Source: Clostridia bacterium
GTDB lineage: Bacteria; Bacillota; Clostridia; Christensenellales; Pumilibacteraceae
Reading direction: 5' to 3'
Assembly (NCBI GenBank): GCA_017396125.1
Contig: JAFQMX010000008.1
Span: 1-48,038 of the forward strand
Length of the DNA stretch: 48,038 nt
The notes beneath the pieces are model-generated. The model ran no database searches. It saw only the letters and a list, made by a program, of their open reading frames with translations, and had not been told where the DNA came from. Positions 16,058-28,108 of this stretch are shown one piece after another (position 1 is the first letter of the stretch; every line of letters starts with the position of its first letter). Both the position numbers and the translations under genes were made by a program.

Positions 16058-16471
16058 CTACGCCAAATCATCGTCGGACAAATCGTTTTTTCCGAGTTTT
16101 TTCGTAGGCTTTTTGTCGCAATTTTGCGAGGGCGTGCCGTCGTCTTTTTGACAATCCCCCTTATTTGTAGTTGCAAACCTTTGTGACTCGTCCGTCTCAC
16201 ACGGTTGTGCTCTTTTCTTGTTTTTTTCGTACTCTTCGCGCCCTTTTGCACGAATTTCGTCGTAGTCCTGTTTTTGCTTGATAGCCTTATTGTCCAGCCA
16301 AATTATAAAGAAAAACAATACGCCAAAAATTCCCGAGTACAACGCAACAGTCGCAATTCTGCCCGACCAAATATCAGGCTTTGCCAAATATATAGGCAAG
16401 GTTACCGTAAACACGCAAATCAAAATCAAGCCGATTATCGCAACTATTTTTCTTGTGGTCTTTCCTATCAT
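16058..16471 (-). CDS. Small two-helix membrane protein with charged tail; probably leaderless
   Basis: 137 residues: two membrane segments (IVAIIGLILICVFTVTLPIYL and VALYSGIFGVLFFFIIWL) followed by about 75 hydrophilic residues rich in Lys, Asp and Glu, ending NDLSDDDLA. I do not recognise the family. The ATG at 16471 has no ribosome-binding site; instead a perfect TTGACA-17-TATAAT promoter ends seven bases before it, so transcription should start on the A of the ATG. An in-frame stop sits two codons upstream, and no better internal start exists. Convergent with the gene ending at 16048. Confidence 0.75.
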   Translation of the reverse strand: MIGKTTRKIVAIIGLILICVFTVTLPIYLAKPDIWSGRIATVALYSGIFGVLFFFIIWLDNKAIKQKQDYDEIRAKGREEYEKNKKRAQPCETDESQRFATTNKGDCQKDDGTPSQNCDKKPTKKLGKNDLSDDDLA

Positions 16472-16477
16472 AATTTA

Positions 16478-16506
16478 ATTATAACACCATAGACGAATAA
16501 TGTCAA
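16478..16506 (-). promoter_or_regulatory. Consensus promoter placing the transcript start on the ATG
   Basis: Minus strand: TTGACA (16506-16501), 17-base spacer, TATAAT (16483-16478), then TAAATT and the ATG at 16471. All 12 consensus positions match. With standard geometry +1 is 16471. Confidence 0.9.
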
Positions 16507-18910: not shown

Positions 18911-18940
18911 TTGACACAAACGTCGCTTTTCGTATATAAT
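18911..18940 (+). promoter_or_regulatory. Promoter of the ECF transporter gene
   Basis: TTGACA (18911-18916), an 18-base spacer and TATAAT (18935-18940): 12 of 12 consensus positions with slightly long spacing. The leader to the ATG at 18994 is about 47 bases, too short for a known vitamin riboswitch. Confidence 0.85.
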
Positions 18941-18993
18941 TTCGTCGTTGCAACACTATGCTCGGTTATTTTATCGAACAACGGAGAAATTAT

Positions 18994-19676: not shown

Positions 19677-20213
19677 TTAGTCAAAGTGTTTCAAAATGAT
19701 GTCGGCGTTTTGCCTTACGTCATAAAATTCTTGGTACGTTTGCTCTTTTGGTTGCCATTTAGAAACAAAATCGGCAAAATTTGGACGACGCTTTAGTCTT
19801 TCGATTCGAACAAACTCGGGACAATCAAGATAAATTTTCGTAGCATTGTACGGCAAAATCGGAAAGTGACTGTACGATCCCTCTATCACCGTAAGACCTG
19901 TTTCTTTGAGTGTGACAGGCAAAAACTCTCCGGTTCTGCACACAAACTTTTTGTAATTTATTTCACCTTCGACGCTCGGCACTTCTCGCATCAATCTTTC
20001 AAAATCAAGGTTGACCTTGTGTTCTTCCGCTATACGTCGGGATCGCTCGTCGCACGGAAAAAAGTCGTCCATAGGAATTACCCTGCAATCCAAATTGTTT
20101 TGCAAATATTGCGCAACCGAGGTTTTTCCGCTACCGCAAAATCCATCGATAGCAATGACGCGCAAATTCCTTTGCTTTATCTCAAAAATCAATTTGTCCA
20201 AATCGTAATTCAT
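19677..20213 (-). CDS. Uridine kinase-like P-loop kinase; probably leaderless
   Basis: 178 residues of the uridine kinase/phosphoribulokinase-like P-loop group. Walker A is DGFCGSGKTSVA near residues 23-34; IPMDDFFPCDE resembles the uridine kinase YDxF-type lid start; TVIEGSYSHFP carries the Walker B-like Glu; ERLKRRPNF is the arginine-rich lid. It probably phosphorylates a nucleoside or small metabolite; the substrate is uncertain. The ATG at 20213 has no ribosome-binding site, and a TTGACG-17-TATAAT promoter ends seven bases before it, so the mRNA should begin at the start codon. In-frame stops lie just upstream. Confidence 0.85.
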   Translation of the reverse strand: MNYDLDKLIFEIKQRNLRVIAIDGFCGSGKTSVAQYLQNNLDCRVIPMDDFFPCDERSRRIAEEHKVNLDFERLMREVPSVEGEINYKKFVCRTGEFLPVTLKETGLTVIEGSYSHFPILPYNATKIYLDCPEFVRIERLKRRPNFADFVSKWQPKEQTYQEFYDVRQNADIILKHFD

Positions 20214-20219
20214 AGGCTT

Positions 20220-20248
20220 ATTATATTATTTATTCGCCTCGCCGTCAA
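20220..20248 (-). promoter_or_regulatory. Consensus promoter placing the transcript start on the ATG
   Basis: Minus strand: TTGACG (20248-20243), 17-base spacer, TATAAT (20225-20220), then AAGCCT and the ATG at 20213: 11 of 12 consensus positions. With standard geometry +1 is 20213. Confidence 0.9.
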
Positions 20249-20283
20249 GTTTATATCGCGACGGTTTTTTTATAGCCACCGCA

Positions 20284-21051
20284 CTACCCCAACGCGACAT
20301 CCAGCACCATCATAAGCGTGAAACCGACGATAAACGACCACGATCCACATCGCACACTGTCATTTACTGCGTCGGGCAAAAGATTTTGCGCAACGACGAG
20401 CAGCATTGCTCCCGCAGCTATTGCTAGAAGCCACGGCATCAATACTGGTAGTTGCAGCGCCAAACATATGCCGACAATTGCAAAAATCGGCTCGACTACT
20501 GCCGAAAGCGAGCCCACTAAAAACGCCTTGGTTCGACTACCAAAAACACTTTTCATAGGTAGACTAAGGGCAGTCCCCTCGGGAATATTTTGCACGCCTA
20601 TCCCCACTGCAAGCCCAAAAGCCGCCCAAAAATCCGCTCTACCACCGCTTGCTATCGCCCCACCGAATGCCACGCCTACGGCAAGCCCCTCGGGTATATT
20701 GTGGAAAGTTACGGCAAAGAATAACTTGTTATACTTTCTTTTTTGCATAAGGGTATCGTTCATTTTTTCGGGAAAAATCTTGTCCAAAACACCTAAAAGC
20801 AATGCTCCCAAAAAAATTCCGGCAACGGCAGGCAAAAAGGAAAAACTACCGTAATCTTCCGCCCCATCAATAGCAGGAATAAGCAACGACCACACCGAAG
20901 CCGCCACCATCACTCCAGAAGCAAAGCCCAAAAATAATGCGTTTGCCCTCTTTGAAACACTTCCTCTAAAAAAGAATACCAACGACGAACCTAACGCCGT
21001 TAAAAATAACGTCAACGAAATTCCCAAAATGGTTATTAATTCTTCACTCAT
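20284..21051 (-). CDS. ZIP-family metal transporter
   Basis: 255 residues with about eight membrane segments. The metal-binding motifs of ZIP proteins are present: FHNIPEGLAVGVAFG near residue 117 and VQNIPEGTALSLP near 152, each with the His/Gln-Asn-x-x-Glu set. ZIP proteins of this length import zinc, iron or manganese (ZupT/ZIP type). AAAGGATG precedes the ATG. A palindrome at 21068-21091 just upstream suggests control by a metal-sensing repressor. No partner genes are nearby. Confidence 0.93.
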   Translation of the reverse strand: MSEELITILGISLTLFLTALGSSLVFFFRGSVSKRANALFLGFASGVMVAASVWSLLIPAIDGAEDYGSFSFLPAVAGIFLGALLLGVLDKIFPEKMNDTLMQKRKYNKLFFAVTFHNIPEGLAVGVAFGGAIASGGRADFWAAFGLAVGIGVQNIPEGTALSLPMKSVFGSRTKAFLVGSLSAVVEPIFAIVGICLALQLPVLMPWLLAIAAGAMLLVVAQNLLPDAVNDSVRCGSWSFIVGFTLMMVLDVALG

Positions 21052-27634: not shown

Positions 27635-28050
27635 AATTCCTCCGTAAGTTTTATAATAGCCAATTTATATGAATTAATACCAAATCCTGCAATAACGCCG
27701 TCTGTCGCGCCACCGGTAAGAATTTTTCGGTAGTCCTCACGTCCAAACAAGTTACTGATATGTACCTCAATTTTCGGCAATGTAACGTAGCGAAGTGCGT
27801 CGGTTATCGCCACAGAAGTGTGAGTGTACGCGCCCGCGTTGAGCACCAGCGCGTCGTAGTCTGTGTTACAAATTCGCTCCACGAGCTCGCCTTCTAGGTC
27901 GGATTGAAAAACTTCCACTTCTGCGCCTCGCTTTTTTGCAAACACACTTAGCTCATCCATCATCTCAGCGTAGGACTGCTCGCCGTAAATAGCCTTTTCT
28001 CTACTGCCTATTCTCTCGATATTAACGCCGTTAACAATTAGAATTTTCAT
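27631..28050 (-). CDS. aroQ: 3-Dehydroquinate dehydratase, type II
   Basis: Dehydrates 3-dehydroquinate to 3-dehydroshikimate. 139 residues from the ATG at 28050, the normal length for the dodecameric type II enzyme. The motifs are NGVNIERIGSREKAIYGEQSY (catalytic Tyr in IYG), VLNAGAYTHTSVAI (Asn, His) and EVHISNLFGREDYRK. The frame extends to 28161 but that part is not conserved. The ribosome-binding site of the ATG is weak, so coupling to aroE, 58 bases upstream, may matter. The Phe-Gly in SNLFGRE replaces the more usual Ile-His/Tyr. Confidence 0.94.
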   Translation of the reverse strand: MKILIVNGVNIERIGSREKAIYGEQSYAEMMDELSVFAKKRGAEVEVFQSDLEGELVERICNTDYDALVLNAGAYTHTSVAITDALRYVTLPKIEVHISNLFGREDYRKILTGGATDGVIAGFGINSYKLAIIKLTEEL

Positions 28051-28108
28051 CAAATTATACCAAAATTTTAATAACATTTTGCCACCAGCGACAAAACGCC
28101 ACACAAAG

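Follow-up and report, generated by a model that had tools for sequence, protein, structure and literature searches.

A predicted leaderless kinase gene and a minority class of genes with a promoter at the start codon in a family of Clostridia

The gene for a 178-amino acid P-loop kinase, on the minus strand (19677..20213) of a 48,038-nucleotide stretch of Clostridia DNA (contig JAFQMX010000008.1; the whole stretch is called the window), very probably has its own promoter and a leaderless mRNA, and would be one member of a minority class that exists alongside genes led by Shine-Dalgarno (SD) sites. An earlier reading of the letters without database searches (the sequence-only reading) had proposed this from the layout of the start region, and that layout is exactly present on the minus strand: TTGACG (20248-20243, a 5/6 match to the -35 hexamer), 17 bases, TATAAT (20225-20220, a 6/6 match to the -10 hexamer), AAGCCT (20219-20214) and the ATG (20213-20211). 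The promoter scan found the two hexamers as an 11/12 match with a 17-base spacer, and the complete motif occurs only once in the genome. The gap of 6 bases lies within the roughly 5-9 expected of a leaderless (TA-led) gene, and it places a pyrimidine at -1 and the A of the start codon at the predicted +1 (20213). The absence of a ribosome-binding site and the close upstream stop described earlier were likewise observed, as no SD-like tetramer is found 3-13 bases before the ATG and the nearest in-frame stop, a TAA, ends 12 bases before it. Scanning the window with Rfam and for tRNAs gave no hits, and no riboswitch or RNA leader was therefore recognised. Because the kinase gene is too rare in its family for conservation to support its own geometry, the case for it rests on the 11/12 promoter together with a genome-wide class of similar genes.

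This class was sought in a sample of about half of the genome, taken in stretches, in which 478 genes were called with a home-made caller using a simple in-frame hexamer model that also sets the gene starts. An SD tetramer was absent from 131 of these genes. The search for TATAAT before the ATG of SD-less genes, which the sequence-only reading had called for, gave a sharp excess: 17 of the 131 had the exact hexamer 5-9 bases ahead of the start, while 1.0 was expected from the counts at gaps of 14-48, and the peak was at gap 6. At that gap TATAAT occurred 7 times and any other permutation of its letters at most once. When a -35 match of at least 4/6 was required and 5/6 was allowed in the -10, 17 genes were found where 1.4 were expected, which is 3.6% of all genes. 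The pattern TTGAN18-21TATAATN5-8ATG was present 21 times in the genome, compared with 0 for the reversed pattern and 7 at a shifted gap of 11-14. The excess of TATAAT before ATG is located at real gene starts; the raw count of TATAATN4-9ATG showed no excess over the reversed control (121 vs 116), and a signal emerges only when a -35 is required or real starts are considered.

Members of the class share other features as well. A pyrimidine just before the ATG is expected when the A is the transcription start, and among class genes with a -35 it was present at -1 in 15 of 16, compared with 63% of SD genes (p 0.013); without the -35 requirement the difference was not significant (p 0.12). Of 29 genes with the leaderless geometry only 2 had a co-directional gene ending 40 bases or less upstream, compared with 288 of 721 others (p 1.4e-4), and genes of this geometry thus sit mostly first in their transcription units. 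By family match or the appearance of their N-termini, those in this genome include genes for an ABC-F ATPase, ApbE and KamB, and holA. Among the 47 genes of the window, an SD match of at least 5 nucleotides was seen in 27, one of only 4 in nine and none in 11, so that the earlier statement that nearly all other window genes have GGAGG-type sites is too strong.

The same class was found in a relative from another genus of the family (G035, GC content 0.55), in which an exact TATAAT at gap 5-9 was present in 13 SD-less genes (0.43 expected) and, with a -35 required, in 12 genes (0.45 expected), or 3.7% of genes. These include genes for RarA-, Lon-, HisH-, TatD- and thioredoxin-like proteins, again judged by family match or N-terminal appearance. 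The recurrence of this promoter-at-start class in SD-less genes of two genera supports the suggestion that leaderless translation is used in this genome. There were 0 such genes in G107, which belongs to a different family of the order, and its GC content of 0.62, higher than that of G035, may contribute to their absence. Across 297 genomes of the order we also compared the counts of TTGAN18-21TATAATN5-8ATG with those obtained when the gap was set to 11-14, and tallied six families. In the family of the window (f1) the count at gap 5-8 was 656 against 239, and it was higher in 22 of 22 sampled genomes. An excess was also present in families f15 (428 vs 206) and f29 (332 vs 193); f24 and f32 showed little, and f4 none (187 vs 269). 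The best UvrB match among named genomes is Christensenella sp. UBA1259 (68%), and the lineage is apparently Christensenella-like.

Conservation of the geometry was observed at two other genes. The sequence-only reading had pointed to a second leaderless case at 16471, the start of a minus-strand gene for a predicted 137-amino acid membrane protein of unassigned function (16058..16471). Here a pattern match places a -35 TTGACA (6/6) at 16501..16506 and a -10 TATAAT at 16478..16483, followed by TAAATT and the ATG. The gene is present in 43 of 74 family genomes. In 14 of 18 start-aligned family homologues, the window's own copy included, the -10 ends 6 or 7 bases before the ATG, and this geometry is kept across at least six genera; the gene is accordingly predicted to be leaderless. 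Most of these homologues carry TTGAC or TTGC where the -35 is expected; they lack an SD site, and their spacers have diverged. For uvrB, 22 of 30 family loci, spread over at least eight genera, have the leaderless layout, compared with 3 of 76 loci beyond the family (two of the three being Lactococcus, L175 and L184); families f15, f29 and f4 together have it at 1 of 25. At both genes the spacing is constant despite lost sequence identity, as selection for a transcription start at the ATG would leave it. Two uvrB loci of genus g11 (L070 and L072) carry a strong AGGAGGT-type site in the place that the leaderless promoter occupies in sister genera, which suggests a natural switch of initiation mode.

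The kinase product passed the cut-off of only one Pfam model, AAA_18, and every match to the NCBIfam kinase models, of which PRK06547 and PRK07667 were the best, was far below cut-off. Scores against the curated cut-offs of the uridine kinase family models were low (PRK07667, 39 of 221 bits; udk, 25 of 220 bits). Among solved structures the closest in sequence is PDB 1rz3, a hypothetical protein whose alignment covers residues 6-174, and nicotinamide riboside kinase is the next structure match. The profile and structure matches place the product, as a P-loop kinase, in the uridine kinase/nicotinamide riboside kinase superfamily, with no substrate assigned. The earlier label of uridine kinase-like is therefore retained at superfamily level and given up at family level. 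The P-loop, GFCGSGKT, does begin at residue 24 as claimed.

The start codon of the kinase is also supported by comparison. Homologues from the same order that are not fused to longer frames start about 18-25 residues before an AIDG-type motif, and in L003, L005 and L010 an ATG stands about 20 residues ahead of an (A/G)IDG motif, as in the window. Since these ATGs sit at the equivalent place and 1rz3 aligns from residue 6, the ATG at 20213 is the supported start. The earlier reading had named homologues beginning downstream behind a ribosome-binding site as evidence that would count against it; the homologues found begin at the equivalent ATG.

Under the favoured explanation, a sigma-A type promoter would direct RNA polymerase to start at the A of the kinase ATG, or within about 2 bases of it, and the resulting mRNA would have neither a 5' leader nor an SD site. 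With both missing, initiation would therefore occur by recognition of the 5'-terminal AUG. Other leaderless mRNAs are translated through initiation by 70S ribosomes or with the assistance of IF2. The kinase would then belong to a leaderless minority, about 4% of genes, existing alongside SD-led genes in this Clostridia family. We infer the position of the RNA 5' end at the ATG and the mode of ribosome binding from the promoter geometry and the class.

Several observations weigh against this explanation. The kinase gene is rare, being present in 2 of 74 family genomes, and its promoter therefore has no comparative support of its own; the other family copy (L003, 34% identity, orthology uncertain) lacks the promoter geometry. 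No relatives of the kinase turned up in one scan of named genomes. Individual TATAAT sites at gap 6 can be coincidental, as tgt illustrates, where in this genome the hexamer overlaps the apparent end of the upstream gene, probably queA. (As a candidate for a conserved leaderless gene, tgt was rejected; the TATAAT is not kept in its relatives.) Read-through from the gene for a ZIP-type metal transporter (20284..21051, identified by profile match), which lies 70 bases upstream on the same strand, would also add a leadered kinase transcript. We consider it unlikely that such a longer transcript, lacking an SD site, is the one from which the kinase is mainly translated even though the promoter is real. 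The terminator scan lists nothing in the 70-base gap and the minus-strand hairpin there has no U-run, as read-through would have it, but the longer transcript would offer no SD site for initiation, and a near-consensus promoter lies precisely where a leaderless mRNA would need it.

Very unlikely is a true start at the TTG of codon 17, behind a 48-base leader: an AAAGG does lie 3 bases before this codon and the shorter protein (MRVIAIDG) would retain the P-loop, but the AAAGG stands too close to the TTG to serve well as an SD site, few genes start with TTG (21 of 478), homologues carry an N-terminal extension about as long, with their ATG in the corresponding position, and the 1rz3 alignment begins upstream of codon 17. 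Coincidence of the kind seen at tgt is, if anything, slightly less probable still, since only about one TATAAT at gap 5-9 is expected by chance per 131 SD-less genes and the kinase has in addition a 5/6 -35 at 17 bases, a match of at least 5/6 at 16-19 bases being found by chance at about 3% of places. We hold more tentatively, and think rather doubtful, the further idea that uvrB and the small membrane-protein gene form a conserved leaderless regulon in the family, kept leaderless across genera because this confers specific regulation, such as under conditions that impair normal initiation. The gene lepA (elongation factor 4, by its N-terminal sequence) was seen with leaderless geometry in two genomes, G000 (gap 9; L052, 18708, plus strand) and G035 (L244, 10018, plus strand).

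Other features of the window were noted in passing. A terminator-like hairpin on the plus strand, CCGTC-(13)-GACGG-TTTTTTT (20236-20270), has an arm that overlaps the kinase -35, and it does not closely follow the end of any obvious plus-strand gene. The gene for an ECF transporter S component has a perfect TTGACA-18-TATAAT on the plus strand (18911-18960) with a gap of 15 bases to the ATG and no SD site seen; its predicted leader is only about 8 bases. On the minus strand at 28050-28090, a TATAAT ends 3 bases before the ATG called near 28050, and the true start may lie elsewhere.

Leaderless mRNAs are known as a kind and, at low levels, in Clostridia. TA-led genes were defined by Zheng et al. 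2011 and within the Firmicutes were concentrated in Lactobacillales and Mycoplasma (PMC3160421); like the genes described here, they lack an SD site and carry TATAAT (TAtAAT in low-GC Firmicutes) about 10 bases ahead of the start codon, but the pattern here is family-wide in Clostridia. In solventogenic Clostridia 2-3% of transcripts have a 5' untranslated region under 6 nucleotides (PMC9045289), in C. phytofermentans 4% are leaderless (PMC5171806) and in C. difficile 15 leaderless genes are described (PMC7438776), so that mapped Clostridia are alike in the low percentage of such genes within an otherwise SD-using class. The C. phytofermentans candidates mostly retain a ribosome-binding site and another upstream start, whereas the genes here have no SD site, and the two that were tested hold the geometry across genera. 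Both Lactococcus uvrB loci have TAAAAT at gap 6 before the ATG; this is a distant lineage from a clade already known for leaderless genes, while the family of the window keeps the uvrB layout in at least eight genera. Text searches of the literature found no report of leaderless mRNA for Christensenellales, and the five papers that pair leaderless mRNA with uvrB appear, by title and abstract, to concern Deinococcus. What is new is the set of family-wide conserved, predicted leaderless genes in an apparently Christensenella-like lineage, and this is of more interest than the kinase itself.

The usual view of Clostridia is of a strictly SD-led class, and leaderless genes may be given wrong starts by gene callers. 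In this apparently uncultured lineage about 4% of genes look leaderless, and at defined genes that state appears to be conserved family-wide. Among related genera uvrB appears to have switched between a leaderless and an SD-led form, which would offer a natural system for studying how and why the mode of initiation of a gene changes.
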